Shown here piece after piece: positions 946 to 14,050 of a stretch of DNA of 20,944 bases. The notes below the pieces were generated by a model. It was not told the DNA's origin and did not search any database. It was given only the letters and a program-made list of their open reading frames with translations. Made by a program: the position numbers and the translations under genes. Each line of letters starts with the position of its first letter. The stretch's first letter is position 1. Origin of the DNA: a virus; the IMG/VR virus record IMGVR_UViG_3300042357_000068, positions 1 to 20,944 of that record; one strand, written 5' to 3'.

Positions 946-1285
946 CACTATTGATCCAATTATCAGCCCTTTTGCAGCACTTGATTTCATACGCGACCAT
1001 TCAACAGCTCTAGCAGAATCAAAGGCAGTCGTTTTATATCTGACTGAGTATCGCAAAAGTAAGAAGGCGTTGCTCATGATCGAGTCGGACGCTAAGACGG
1101 AATCGGCAAAAGAAAGCTACGCCTACGCTCATGTAGACTACATCGCCCACATTAAAGCCCTAGCATCAGCAGTACAAGAGTACGAGAGGCTGCGTTGGCT
1201 AATGGTGGCAGCAGAAGCTAAGATTTCTGTTTGGCAGACGTTAGAAGCGACTGCACGAATAGAGATGAAGGCTTCTAATATATGA
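938..1285 (+). CDS. Conserved phage protein of unknown function, TTG start
   Basis: A protein of 115 residues. The TTG at 938 is the only reasonable start: a GGGGA stretch lies several bases upstream, the frame overlaps the previous gene by 8 bases, and the next Met is deep inside the protein. The sequence is almost entirely helical, with the order 'AESKAVVLYLTEYRKSKKALLM', a Tyr-rich YAYAHVDYIAH segment, and 'ERLRWLMVAAEAKISVWQTLEA' near the end. Small helical proteins with this pattern occur in phage recombination/replication modules next to nuclease genes, but I know of no assigned function. It ends in an ATGA overlap with the HNH gene. Confidence 0.65.
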   Translation: MTDTIDPIISPFAALDFIRDHSTALAESKAVVLYLTEYRKSKKALLMIESDAKTESAKESYAYAHVDYIAHIKALASAVQEYERLRWLMVAAEAKISVWQTLEATARIEMKASNI

Positions 1286-1764
1286 AAAACATTCCTACAT
1301 TTAAAAATTATTCCATTAATAAAAATGGAGAGGTTTGGATAGATAGATTAAATAGGAAAAAAAGGACATTTCTATTAAAAAATGGATATGCAGCCGTTTC
1401 TTTATCAAAAGATGGTAAACAAAAAAACTACACTATTCATAGCTTAGTATTGCTTACTTTTGTTGGTGAGCGTCCATCTAATAAACATGAGGCTATGCAC
1501 TTAGATGGAACAAGATGCAATAACTCATTGTCAAATTTAAAGTGGGGAACCAGAAGTGAAAATTGTTTAGACAAAAAAAATCACGGCACTTTCCAAGAAG
1601 GTGAAAAGCACGGGATGCACAAATTAAATAAAGATCAAGTATTACAAATAAAAAGTAGCAATTTACCTTTAGTTTATTTTGCAAAATTGTTTTCCGTTAC
1701 ACCAGAAGCTATAGGCTATGCAAAAAATATAGGCTGGAAAAGCCTAGATGTGAAACCCCAATGA
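1282..1764 (+). CDS. NUMOD4/HNH homing-type endonuclease
   Basis: A protein of 160 residues with three parts. Residues 1-30 are a NUMOD4-like segment (PTFKNYSINKNGEVWI). Residues 50-95 are an HNH nuclease core: H53 in the YTIHSLVLLTF helix, H73 in AMHLDG, N80/N81, then LSNLKWGTRSEN. Residues 110-150 are a helix-turn-helix-like DNA-binding tail (HKLNKDQVLQI, then VYFAKLFSVTPEAIGYAK). Free-standing enzymes of this type cut DNA at specific sites and spread by homing. The gene is visibly richer in A and T than its neighbours, which supports recent arrival. It joins both neighbours by ATGA overlaps, so it sits seamlessly in the operon. No intron or intein is seen around it. Confidence 0.9.
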   Translation: MKNIPTFKNYSINKNGEVWIDRLNRKKRTFLLKNGYAAVSLSKDGKQKNYTIHSLVLLTFVGERPSNKHEAMHLDGTRCNNSLSNLKWGTRSENCLDKKNHGTFQEGEKHGMHKLNKDQVLQIKSSNLPLVYFAKLFSVTPEAIGYAKNIGWKSLDVKPQ

Positions 1765-8828: not shown

Positions 8829-9317
8829 TCAGACCTTTACTATTCCATCACTGCGAATGATAAAGAGAAGGAAGATTATATTGTCCTCTGCCGGAGTGCT
8901 TCCAGCAGCGACAAAGCCTATCTTAATCCGACCAGAGAAACCCGCGCCATTGACTGAACTTATAGCTAGTTGAGCGTCATCATCAACTAAGTCCCACGAG
9001 GTATCGTCTATGATAAGCGTGAAGGAGCCATTAGCATCATCACGATTAACGATGGTCAAAGGAATCGGGGTAGGGGTAGGGGTGTAATTCGTTATGTCGA
9101 AGGTCAACCCGTAGCGGGAGTCCTTCACATTGGATAAGGTTCTACGGACTATCTGAGCGTCTATGGTCGCGTCAACTAGATTGACAGGCGTTACGCCATC
9201 ATCACCAGTTAAAGTGAGATTCCAGAAGGTAGACTGTTGGTATACGAGTTCGCCAGCGATAATTGGATTATCAAAGCCGCTGACTTGAGATAGGGAATTC
9301 TTGTTAAAGACAGCTAT
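8829..9317 (-). CDS. Baseplate/fibre structural protein with probable AUA start
   Basis: The usual start codons allow only a 99-residue protein from a GTG at 9128. The frame, however, stays open and clearly coding upstream to a TAG at 9327-9329: AVFNKNSLSQVSGFDNPII, then GELVYQQSTFWNLTLTGDDG and NLVDATIDAQIVRRTLSN run straight into KDSRYGLTFDITNYTPTPTP. Starting at the ATA at 9317 gives 162 residues beginning (M)AVFNKNSLS. AGGG lies seven bases upstream of this ATA. The ATA overlaps the TAG of a 13-residue leader ORF (ATAG). The C-terminal half (IVNRDDANGSFTLIIDDTSWDL, GFSGRIKIGF, IIFLLFIIRSDGIV) resembles a structural protein common in aquatic phages. Alternatives are a point mutation of ATG or an indel in the assembly. 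Coding of the extended region is well supported; the exact start is not. Confidence 0.65.
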   Translation of the reverse strand: MAVFNKNSLSQVSGFDNPIIAGELVYQQSTFWNLTLTGDDGVTPVNLVDATIDAQIVRRTLSNVKDSRYGLTFDITNYTPTPTPIPLTIVNRDDANGSFTLIIDDTSWDLVDDDAQLAISSVNGAGFSGRIKIGFVAAGSTPAEDNIIFLLFIIRSDGIVKV

Positions 9318-9355
9318 GACGCTACCCTAACCTTTTGCTGCGATGCCGTTCTCAT
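9314..9355 (-). CDS. 13-residue leader peptide ORF
   Basis: ATG at 9353-9355 with a textbook AAGGAG (9362-9367) six bases upstream opens a short frame, MRTASQQKVRVAS, that stops at TAG 9314-9316. This stop overlaps the ATA that appears to start the downstream structural gene. It may be a leader that delivers ribosomes for re-initiation, or the remnant of the true N-terminus if an indel separates the two frames. The strong ribosome-binding site shows that ribosomes load here. Confidence 0.45.
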   Translation of the reverse strand: MRTASQQKVRVAS

Positions 9356-9378
9356 GCTCTGCTCCTTACTAGGAATTC

Positions 9379-9398
9379 GGTTCGCTCACTAGCGAATC
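9379..9398 (-). promoter_or_regulatory. Hairpin in the 5' leader of the fibre genes
   Basis: Bases 9379-9386 pair with 9391-9398 around a four-base loop (8 bp including one G-T pair). The hairpin lies just ahead of the AAGGAG of the leader peptide. No T-run follows on the - strand, so it is more likely an mRNA stability or processing element than a terminator. Confidence 0.5.
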
Positions 9399-9427
9399 CG
9401 TGCAGTCATGTCTTATCTTATTTTTAG

Positions 9428-9457
9428 ATTTTAACTTATATCAGAATTAAAATAAAT
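9428..9457 (-). promoter_or_regulatory. Possible promoter for the fibre/lysis genes
   Basis: This AT-rich gap, part of the largest non-coding stretch of the late strand, contains on the - strand TTTATT, a 17-base spacer and TAAAAT (9428-9433). A TGATATAAG (9435-9443) also resembles an extended -10. Matches to the sigma70 consensus are partial. Position upstream of a leader, hairpin and fibre genes supports a promoter, but this is inference. Confidence 0.3.
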
Positions 9458-9793
9458 TTATTTCCATACCTCTACAGGAGGCGTGGGCCAAACCACAGTG
9501 CCAGCAGGTGGATATACAGCAATCTGACGAATCACTTGGCGATAAGCAATGAACTGCTCCTGATTGGCTAGTCTGGGATTGGCTGTTGGGAGTGATACGT
9601 CAGCTATGGTGGTCCAGTCAGTGCTGTTTAGGATGCCTGTGGCGGTCTGTGCATTAGTCATCTTCTCAGATTCGAGTTGTACTGCTGCTGCATCATAGAT
9701 AACTGGATTGCCATCAACATCAAAGGCATCATCGCCCATAGTGCGAACAGTCTGAGGATAGAGTTTGAATAGTGCTGAAATAAAGTTGTTCAT
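9458..9793 (-). CDS. Tail fibre-associated / fibre assembly-like protein
   Basis: A protein of 111 residues with the order LYPQTVRTMGDDAFDVDGNPVIYD, then a helical segment and ILNSTDWTTIADV, then NQEQFIAYRQVIRQIAVYPP and a Trp-rich end (VVWPTPPVEVWK). The 'L..TDW..I.DV......L.N..E...YR..VR' pattern is typical of small phage tail-fibre chaperone and XkdW-like proteins, which are usually encoded next to a fibre gene, as here. It starts in an ATGA overlap with the fibre gene upstream. It may be a folding helper for the 221-residue fibre or a minor structural part. Confidence 0.7.
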   Translation of the reverse strand: MNNFISALFKLYPQTVRTMGDDAFDVDGNPVIYDAAAVQLESEKMTNAQTATGILNSTDWTTIADVSLPTANPRLANQEQFIAYRQVIRQIAVYPPAGTVVWPTPPVEVWK

Positions 9794-10455
9794 CCCTGTA
9801 TCTCCATTAGGGTAATAGTTCCAGTTTGACTATCTGAAAAAACAGTCACTGCCCCAGCTACATTTACTGACGCATAATAAATTGTATATGCAGTTGATGA
9901 TGTTGTGGCGGGAGAATCTAAATATGACATACTAGCAATCAATTGAAGATTACCTGCATTAGTATAAACCTTCCCAAACCCATTTAATGGTGTCCCGCTT
10001 GAAGATAGATTTGTAGCTCCTCTATAAATAGTAAGCGCCATCTGCCGATTAGCTGTACCAGTTTCTATTGGAATAGATGAGGTTATTAGTATTTTGCTTG
10101 ATGTGCTTCTTGGCGTAATAGAGGCAGTTAAATTACTTGTTACATAAGATGCGCTAGAAGTGCTGCCAAGAGTGGAATATGCTGTCTGCACCACCTGCAA
10201 CACACTCCCCGCTGGCATACCCCCAGAAGTCCAAGTAGTCCCATTAGATTTTAATATATTACCTGTAGTACCGGGAGCGACAAAAGTTACCGCGCTGGTT
10301 CCGGCTCCAAGTATTACATTGGCCGAAGTTAGAGTCGCTGCTCCGGTTCCGCCGTTAGCAACTCCAAGCGTACCACTGACTCCCGTTCCTAAAGCAACCT
10401 GACCTGATGAGTTCGTATTATTTGCTAACTGACTTAGATTGAAAGCGTTTGTCAT
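9790..10455 (-). CDS. Tail fibre protein (short)
   Basis: A protein of 221 residues. The N-terminal part has fibre modules GVSGTLGVANGGTGAATLTS and APGTTGNILKSNGTTWTSGG, which are common repeats of phage fibres. From about residue 80 (AGSVLQVVQTAYST, then LTASITPRSTSSKILITSS and MALTIYRGATNL) it matches a frequent C-terminal domain of short fibres and other structural proteins that likely forms the receptor-facing part. It overlaps the tip protein gene and the fibre-associated gene by ATGA on both sides, so it is probably made in fixed ratio with them. The specific receptor is unknown. Confidence 0.8.
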   Translation of the reverse strand: MTNAFNLSQLANNTNSSGQVALGTGVSGTLGVANGGTGAATLTSANVILGAGTSAVTFVAPGTTGNILKSNGTTWTSGGMPAGSVLQVVQTAYSTLGSTSSASYVTSNLTASITPRSTSSKILITSSIPIETGTANRQMALTIYRGATNLSSSGTPLNGFGKVYTNAGNLQLIASMSYLDSPATTSSTAYTIYYASVNVAGAVTVFSDSQTGTITLMEIQG

Positions 10456-13400: not shown

Positions 13401-13628
13401 GTTCGGGCCACCTATAACCGCTGAGACTGCAAAAGATATAGCCATTGATACAACCATACTGATCGCAACAGCTAGGACTTGGGCTGTAGCAAGCGATATA
13501 GTTAACGCTGTCACAAGAAAAGCTGTTAGCGTAGCAACGAACGCATAAGCCTGACTTGTGAATGTCATCGTACTTATCCCGACGAAAATTACCCAAGTTC
13601 TTTTATTTATGAAAGTTCTTTTATCCAC
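10452..13628 (-). CDS. Tail tip / central fibre protein (J-like)
   Basis: A protein of up to 1058 residues. A hydrophobic N-terminal region (about 25-70) is followed by a Gly-rich linker (PNAPGGGGEQ) and NKLPVVYGDSWIGGTVID, which is characteristic of tail tip proteins of the J/Phage-tail_3 group. The central part (about 330-500) includes LLRYDEVTAKWGVIVQKP and YLANRFLKASREDLQVTC with LEAGDVMTLTN, matching the tip-domain core. Fibronectin-like segments follow. The last 200 residues hold three related beta modules (for example FTATSGQTVFPVS and LYTNGVLQKDGVDYT), also seen at the end of the 920-residue fibre. The GTG at 13628 overlaps the GNAT gene by 22 bases; an ATG at 13568 (MTFTSQAYAF, GGGA upstream) is an equally good start. 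The protein closes the tail tube and would start host contact. Confidence 0.88.
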   Translation of the reverse strand: MDKRTFINKRTWVIFVGISTMTFTSQAYAFVATLTAFLVTALTISLATAQVLAVAISMVVSMAISFAVSAVIGGPNAPGGGGEQRDPGNRTQIPPATSNKLPVVYGDSWIGGTVIDLSITDNDQKLYYVLALSEVTNTNPGQTADTITFGDIYYSGKKCVFNATNQYQVDALLDESTGESETNVKGKINIYLYSNGSNTPTNSDQTAIQVMQDSNLIYKWDGTKLMTNCAFAILVLTYSVTANIRGLAPTRFQVKNSRHKPGECFSDFLTNTRYGAAIPSTQIDTTSLTALDVYSDESFTYTDYDGVTTTQTRFRFDGAVDAARTIMSTLQNMTSSCDCLLRYDEVTAKWGVIVQKPTYTVAMAINDSNIISSIQVTPIDLSNSFNIAEVKFPDKSNQDAFNTSTFDLAQIDPALLFPNEPINKQSITVPFCNNNVRAQYLANRFLKASREDLQVTCSVGFDGLQLEAGDVMTLTNANYGWVDKLFRTNKVSQTFKDDGAIVVNLLLMEFNPTVYDDVAITEFQPSPNTGIGDPLVFGTVPPPIVETEYPTAVNPLFLVQVTTPAAGISQYAELYYTAFPDPTEAQLIFTGTSEVQSNGTPWNINTALPLISLAGIPSGDWYFVTRMRNSLGASSFSLPSAAFEWRPTTFQYSEQYLVIAYADTITGTGFDLNPRGKYYYGLINQSSITPSIDPAAYSWYLAEPAFGTTIYPLYTNRTGRKISFDTGFAIYASGTAAFVPYETNLFDPTIWAALPDGTNYIDLDVRTGQLLKVGTTSVGTGEISVSNNSDGVVIAQLAPYLDFGAGVYTYTASAATLTVDIYGRVVGFTTPDTFEMTISTFTATSGQTVFPVSRNAAYIVGQCFVFNQGTLCQTSEYTDAAGGVTFGTGIVLNNIITIISFRSTDTNTSASYASFTRHSATLTDAGSYTASGFVIYSGYELLFLNGTVVNEQDYDIIGQIITNFPNAATGDLEIIQWTPNNLGVPNGTPVNAVRNTVVGQAAYAFSLSVGGFNLYTNGVLQKDGVDYTAVSTGYTLAVTPTIIDNILVQQTFARAGAA

Positions 13629-14050
13629 GTTTCTTCCATTTTCTTAAAGCCATATTTTTTATAATTCAAATTAGGGCTGTTATGCAGCTTGCCCATTACA
13701 AAAAAAGTTATTCTGCCTTCGTCTTTTAATTGGTTTCCGTAGTTCACGAATTCTTTAAAAAGCCTATATCCTACCGTAGATTTCCTATATTCCGGCTTCA
13801 CATACCACGCCAATTCATGTAGTCCGAACGTCTTATTGCACCACAAAGACGGGACTATCATCCCTATTATCAACCCCTTCCCCGGCTCAATAAAAATTAC
13901 CCCTAGTCCAGAATTAATGCTATCAAATAACTGACTCCACCAGTCTGGGTTCTCTAATGCTCTAAGGAAGTCAATGTCGCTTTCCGTCTTGAACATTCTC
14001 ATCATTTCAATGACGTCGGTTTTATCAAATTTATTAGATTTTCTTATCAC
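13607..14050 (-). CDS. GNAT-family acetyltransferase in the tail operon
   Basis: A protein of 147 residues with GNAT features: an N-terminal MIRKSNKFDKTDVIEMMRMF helix, a central hairpin (GVIFIEPGKGLIIGMIVP), then motif A (HELAWYVKPEYRKSTVGYRL, with R89 and G94 in the acetyl-CoA loop). The late segment YKKYGFKKMEETWIKE is typical of the family C-terminus. Such enzymes transfer an acetyl group from acetyl-CoA to amines; the target here is unknown. The gene starts with GTG in a GTGA overlap with the minor tail gene and overlaps the tip gene. Its base composition is AT-rich compared with the tail genes. It lies where many tail operons carry an NlpC/P60 peptidase (lambda K). Confidence 0.8.
   Translation of the reverse strand: MIRKSNKFDKTDVIEMMRMFKTESDIDFLRALENPDWWSQLFDSINSGLGVIFIEPGKGLIIGMIVPSLWCNKTFGLHELAWYVKPEYRKSTVGYRLFKEFVNYGNQLKDEGRITFFVMGKLHNSPNLNYKKYGFKKMEETWIKELS

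Follow-up and report, generated by a model that had tools for sequence, protein, structure and literature searches.

Analysis of a 20.9-kb virus record over its whole length (20,944 nt; the window) uncovered a tail gene that lacks a standard start codon, and comparison with its relatives makes capture of its start codon by a homing endonuclease gene (HEG) very probable. In the proposed course, a GIY-YIG HEG would insert precisely where the tail gene starts, its open reading frame (ORF) beginning at the gene's original ATG or GTG behind the original Shine-Dalgarno (SD) sequence and 5′ UTR hairpin. From the 3′ end of the insert, the displaced gene would receive AGGG as a further SD and ATA or ATC as a replacement start codon. 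The HEG stop either overlaps the ATA (as ATAG) or precedes the replacement codon by 4 or 9 nt, and initiation or re-initiation at AUA or AUC would be SD-assisted. In the lineage of the window, an internal deletion would have removed nearly all of the HEG and left a 13-codon leader, made of its start and its last ~10 codons, together with the ATA. This course is well supported at the sequence level by the identity of the insertion site, the perfect association of the HEG with ATA or ATC, the scars and the coding constraint; the putative HEG is presumably active.

Start codon of the tail gene in the window and its relatives

The tail gene lies on the minus strand at 8829–9317 and comprises 162 codons (confirmed by an ORF check), with ATA as its apparent start and TGA as its stop. 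Its frame is uninterrupted from just past a TAG at 9329–9327 down to the TGA at 8829, and the first standard start within it is a GTG at 9128 (codon 64 when the ATA is codon 1). The 63 codons between the ATA and this GTG contain no ATG, GTG or TTG. The ATA (9317–9315) is preceded by AGGG (9328–9325) with a 7-nt spacer, and further upstream lies a 13-codon leader ORF (MRTASQQKVRVAS followed by a stop; 9355–9314, minus strand; ATG AGA ACG GCA TCG CAG CAA AAG GTT AGG GTA GCG TCA TAG). The leader TAG (9316–9314) shares bases with the ATA of the tail gene, which gives the ATAG overlap, and an AAGGAG (9367–9362) stands before the leader. The original prediction had described 63 coding codons without a usual start upstream of the GTG, and this is borne out by the sequence and by coding constraint, as are, on the sequence itself, its ATA with AGGG 7 nt upstream, its leader with AAGGAG and its ATAG layout.

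The 5′ UTR carries a hairpin (CGGATTCGCTAGTGAGCGAACCG; 9378–9400, minus strand) with a conserved GAG-type loop. RNAalifold analysis of 17 sequences recovers it as a 9-bp hairpin in which nine of nine pairs have pair-keeping changes on both sides, and no Rfam match to it was found when the window was scanned. It is kept with or without the HEG, and in HEG-bearing relatives it precedes the HEG instead of the tail gene. The window sequence at ~9400–9900 is unrelated to that at the same place in L002, L020 and L008, though the leader and tail gene are nearly identical, which places a recombination boundary just upstream of the hairpin.

Viral contigs searched at the protein level yielded 113 relatives of the tail gene product, of which 80 were kept. 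When aligned, most of these have ATG, and some GTG, at the exact position of the window's ATA; 11 have neither, and in five of the 11 the UTR and the gene are separated by an unrelated ORF of ~160 codons. A pattern scan for ATA, ATC or ATT before the conserved N-terminus yielded 46 contigs, nearly all with a HEG ORF or a short remnant of a HEG 3′ end directly upstream. The association was counted over 114 distinct loci, three of them cut by contig ends. All 33 loci with a HEG start with ATA (26) or ATC (7), all 61 loci with neither a HEG nor a HEG tail start with ATG (52) or GTG (9), and the 17 ATA or ATC loci that are without a HEG all retain a HEG-like 3′ tail. An ATA or ATC at the tail-gene start is found in 53 distinct sequences. 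A HEG-anchored search, which is blind to the start codon, placed 36 of 36 close HEG matches directly before the tail gene, all with ATA or ATC, and the HEG with ATA is also present in an NCBI MAG contig from another assembly pipeline (L209, JAHEYD010000010.1). This contig, L210 and L211 were binned into Nitrosotalea, Bacteroidetes and Desulfomonile MAGs and are most likely misbinned phage contigs.

On a gene tree built by a quick method, at least 13 changes of start class occur, eight of them forced by well-supported (starred) branches, along with 18 changes in the presence or absence of the HEG. Six independent pairs on the well-supported branches all join the HEG with ATA or ATC (sign test p = 0.031), and 11 independent pairs with the same association are obtained from all branches. 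The window's ATA and leader recur in five further viral genotypes, which come from different metagenomes. Relatives with an ATG at this place, proposed in the original prediction as a refutation of the AUA start, do exist, but the refutation fails, since all of them are without the mobile element; these relatives therefore explain the window's ATA instead of refuting it. The closest HEG-free relatives (L003–L007, L009–L011, L048 and L031) have GTG rather than ATG at the start codon, which might also be a homing-resistant allele.

The inserted putative homing endonuclease and its scars

The HEG ORF between the 5′ UTR and the tail gene (MAVLYWLRLPEHTDMFTQGYVGV...KRLRSHKHRFK...) spans ~160 codons. 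An alignment of 13 members contains invariant Y5, G19-Y20-x-G22, R30, E62 and N74, which corresponds to the GIY-YIG pattern, and we take the invariant Y, Y, R, E and N to be catalytic residues by analogy with I-TevI. Four of the 13 members match phrog_314 (homing endonuclease; best 9e-8), and 11 match Pfam GIY-YIG, all below the curated cut-off (best 6e-4), which the more distant HEG relatives L167 and L169 exceed. A Foldseek search with the HEG model returned no significant match, and the HEG profile retrieved nothing relevant from solved structures, so that the assignment of the inserted ORF as a putative free-standing GIY-YIG homing endonuclease rests on motif and profiles.

Three occupied/empty pairs (L152/L076, L150/L053 and L149/L047) contain an insert of ~480–490 nt at the start codon and an unchanged UTR upstream. 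In such near-identical pairs, the HEG starts at the tail gene's own start codon and the insert ends in AGGG....CATMGC. This one exact site is polymorphic, being occupied in 33 cases and empty in 61. Sequence similarity between phages is greater for the HEG than for its adjoining gene, a pattern that a mobile gene would produce: the HEG is 100% identical in L158, L159 and L160, where the tail genes share 91–96% identity, and in L128 and L129 its identity is 98.7% vs. 86.2% for the tail gene. Relative to the ATA or ATC, the HEG stop has an offset of +1, −7 or −12, in three frames and always within 12 nt. A second HEG type, which bears NUMOD3 (L051:3388-3918, L108:2900-3418 and L099), shares both the insertion site and the 3′ tail, as would result from exchange of the HEG body with retention of the tail. 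A group I intron at the start codon was considered and rejected, as the insert consists of an ORF that has a stop of its own, brings a new SD and varies in its frame relation to the gene; an Rfam scan of the window gave no match.

More distant GIY-YIG HEGs in other phages (L167 and L169–L172) are located directly before genes that have ATG. The L169 HEG and the gene downstream of it begin alike, with ATGGCTAA, a start-codon insertion without codon change. Since these other GIY-YIG HEGs leave ATG, the codon change belongs to the tail-gene HEG. Elsewhere in the window, a 160-aa HNH_3 endonuclease ORF (1282–1764, plus strand; Pfam E 5e-8) is possibly another homing endonuclease.

Judged by sequence comparison, the window locus is a predicted HEG-loss scar whose leader is a homing endonuclease remnant. 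A right-anchored match of 9350–9318 to HEG 3′ ends reaches up to 23 of 33 positions (0 of 20,000 shuffles), whereas the same 33 nt match empty sites at 17 of 33 positions at most. When the functionally constrained SD part is left aside, 13 of 20 bases still match (44 of 20,000 shuffles). The leader C-terminus, QQKVRVAS and a stop in ATAG, resembles the FEQKDRVAS or FEQKSRVAS termini of the intact HEGs with which it was compared (L090, L100, L101 and L107), which end in the same ATAG overlap. The motif AGGGTAGC.TCATAGC is common to the window and to intact HEG loci L127, L131, L133–L135 and L148; it marks the approximate HEG 3′ tail in the scar (9315–9346, minus strand), the likely source of the AGGG and the ATA. 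AGGGTA[AG] is absent from the last 25 nt of all empty ATG/GTG sites. At the other end of the leader, its ATG occupies the native GTG start position of the close relatives L003–L011 (AAGGAGCAGATC-GTG vs. AAGGAGCAGAGC-ATG). The AAGGAG-CAGAKC-start spacing is equal in the window and in these relatives, where AAGGAG serves the tail-gene GTG; from this spacing, the AAGGAG at 9362–9367 (minus strand) is the tail gene's original SD, now standing before the leader ATG.

Over six genotypes, 0 of 48 sites vary in the leader DNA and 28 of 71 fourfold sites vary in the tail gene. This invariance could be due to selection or, in part, to recombination, since the sequence upstream of the UTR is mosaic. A 13-codon ORF is all that the window itself retains of a HEG, which is thus not functional there. 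Searches returned no intact HEG that shares the exact UTR or tail of the window, and we therefore infer the deletion event from related HEGs. A second scar family carries a 15-codon leader (MSSNQGFLCF[AV]RKAG and a stop; seven distinct sequences) that is nearly invariant, like the 13-codon leader. Other scars (L085, L096/L104, L112 and L082) have no ATG-started leader and keep ATA or ATC. A pattern scan for scars reverted to ATG returned one chance match (L207), which is without the tail gene.

Probable translation from ATA and retention of the codon

In codons 2–16 of the tail gene, pN/pS is 0.17 in ATA/ATC relatives vs. 0.15 in ATG/GTG relatives, and in the window clade the same codons contain zero non-synonymous vs. 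35 synonymous differences (pairwise sums). The codons just after the ATA are under normal purifying selection, and translation therefore starts at or very near the ATA. The gene thus combines the lack of a standard start with coding constraint from the ATA onward, as looked for in a near-cognate start, and we infer that ribosomes initiate at AUA. The AUA start put forward in the original prediction is strongly supported, as the ATA is the start position in all relatives and the codons that follow are conserved as protein. Stop and start lie close together, as in termination-reinitiation, both in the window (ATAG) and at the HEG loci (stops at +1, −7 and −12). The re-initiation proposed along with the AUA start is plausible at the window locus, but it does not hold as a general requirement, given that L085, L096, L104, L112 and L082 have no ATG-started leader; these leaderless scars suggest that translation of an upstream ORF is not always required for tail gene expression.

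Three other readings of the locus were weighed against initiation at AUA. A programmed −1 frameshift or readthrough could join the leader or HEG to the tail frame, with the protein starting at the leader ATG, and the leader and tail frames do overlap between 9326 and 9316 in the window. However, this short shared zone contains no canonical slippery heptamer on direct reading, in agreement with the original prediction, and the residues encoded upstream of the ATA (GSV, GKI and GKA) are not conserved as protein. The HEG ORF moreover ends in three frames relative to the tail gene, which no single shift would join, and the leaderless scars listed above offer no ATG-started leader to shift from; these two observations exclude frameshifting as a common mechanism and make it very unlikely here. 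Even less credible is a start at an internal standard codon (in the window, the GTG at codon 64) with the upstream codons as untranslated leftovers. An internal GTG is indeed present, but codons 2–16 are constrained as strongly as in ATG-started relatives, with the zero non-synonymous differences of the window clade, and a start at codon 64 would delete several strands predicted in the structure model. The position of the first internal standard start varies among the ATA/ATC genes, and 34 of the 53 have no internal ATG at all. Finally, a sequencing or assembly error could hide a true ATG or one extra base that joins the frames. Only the oddness of the start codon favours this reading, whose probability we consider negligible, and the substitution or indel offered earlier as an alternative is rejected: six genotypes whose tail genes vary at 28 fourfold sites share the ATA and leader, and an ATA or ATC is carried by 53 distinct sequences and by the independent NCBI MAG contig L209.

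The return of ATG appears to be opposed. The third base of the start codon switches between A and C at least six times on each of the two trees, with no case of G or T; ATC is found only where the HEG stop does not overlap the start, since ATAG needs the A. Although six changes are few, this switching without G or T suggests selection against ATG. The most likely reasons for the absence of ATG are that it would recreate the endonuclease target next to an intact HEG, that a weak codon suffices when coupled to the HEG or leader, or both, and target avoidance is slightly favoured over expression coupling. By taking AUG from an essential phage gene and giving back AUA or AUC, the HEG would remove its own target and tie translation of the gene to itself, and HEG-free lineages such as that of the window would be locked with AUA since this codon would protect them from re-invasion, an account that we put forward tentatively. 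ATA or ATC might instead be kept purely for expression, with the weak codon setting a lower, HEG- or leader-coupled level that makes deletion of the HEG costly, and with no role in resistance. HEG stops that always fall within 12 nt of the ATA or ATC fit this account, as do the two scar families whose short ATG-started leaders (13 and 15 codons) are nearly invariant. It also finds a precedent in T4 HEGs with embedded promoters for downstream genes, which have been argued to be retained likewise (PMC2988022), and AUA initiates at ~10–30% of AUG in S. aureus reporters (PMC13009471). On the other hand, scars without any leader still have ATA or ATC, tail proteins are usually needed in quantity, and the GIY-YIG HEGs before other phage genes (L167 and L169–L172) leave ATG; a role in expression alone is conceivable but somewhat doubtful.

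Known systems and the tail gene product

Phage HEGs inserted between genes include the free-standing GIY-YIG Seg family of T-even phages (PMC2988022). Like these, the tail-gene HEG is a promoter-less ORF beside a structural gene, in the same orientation and overlapping neighbouring start or stop codons; it is present or absent among relatives and more alike between phages than the adjoining gene. In the T4 cases, promoters are displaced, or start and stop codons overlap while the starts remain standard (PMC2988022), whereas the tail-gene HEG would take its neighbour's start codon and SD and leave ATA or ATC. Natural AUA or AUU starts are reported in bacteria for S. aureus infC, ccpN and citZ (PMC13009471) and, as stated in a reference within PMC2268962, an AUU start for E. 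coli infC. As in the phage tail gene, an SD stands a few bases upstream of these starts, which are expected to be weak and sensitive to IF3; this factor discriminates against non-canonical starts, and its reduction of re-initiation is milder in the presence of an SD (PMC2268962). The bacterial cases are regulatory or single genes, unlike the recurrent state of a phage virion gene found here, which is tied to a mobile element and represented by >50 distinct sequences. Coupling at overlapping stop and start codons is known from the UAAUGA of nrdA-mobE in T4 (PMC2988022) and from an M13-derived reporter (PMC2268962); the tail-gene loci likewise have stop and start overlapping (ATAG) or within 12 nt, but with AUA or AUC as the start.

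The homing endonuclease and the near-cognate start are thus each known, and a search of the open literature, with subscription papers outside its scope, found no earlier report of a HEG combined with an AUA start in phages. In bacteria and phages, a near-cognate start is usually put down to an annotation error. The loci described here provide a natural set of >50 distinct sequences in which a virion gene has AUA or AUC in place of AUG; the cause is visible, and relatives with AUG serve as matched controls. Start-codon capture would be a further route by which a HEG settles in a compact genome, and it would leave a lasting scar after loss. The system allows direct tests of the efficiency of AUA with an SD and coupling, and of start-codon change as protection from homing. 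Gene prediction based on standard starts will overlook or shorten the tail gene in all such phages.

The tail gene is flanked by tail-tip or fibre genes on one side and by further fibre genes on the other. PHROGs and Pfam profile searches with its product gave no match. An AlphaFold2 model built from 39 relatives (pLDDT 80.6, pTM 0.78) retrieved 8hqz_T (E 8e-7) and 7qg9_L (E 2e-5) in Foldseek, and the predicted structure resembles a baseplate or tail-tip protein of ~140 residues from phages T5 and DT57C (PDB 7qg9 chains J and L; 8hqz chains Q and T), with a TM of 0.47–0.55 by query length. We take the matched T5 protein to be the p132 collar. The likeness extends to the setting, the window gene also lying among tail-tip and fibre genes, although sequence identity is 10–14%. 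In the nearest isolate, Methylophilaceae phage P19250A, the tail protein is 64% identical, and its gene starts with ATG and is without a HEG. The tail gene cluster of the window also encloses a GNAT acetyltransferase-like ORF (13607–14050, minus strand), whose Pfam match is below the cut-off.
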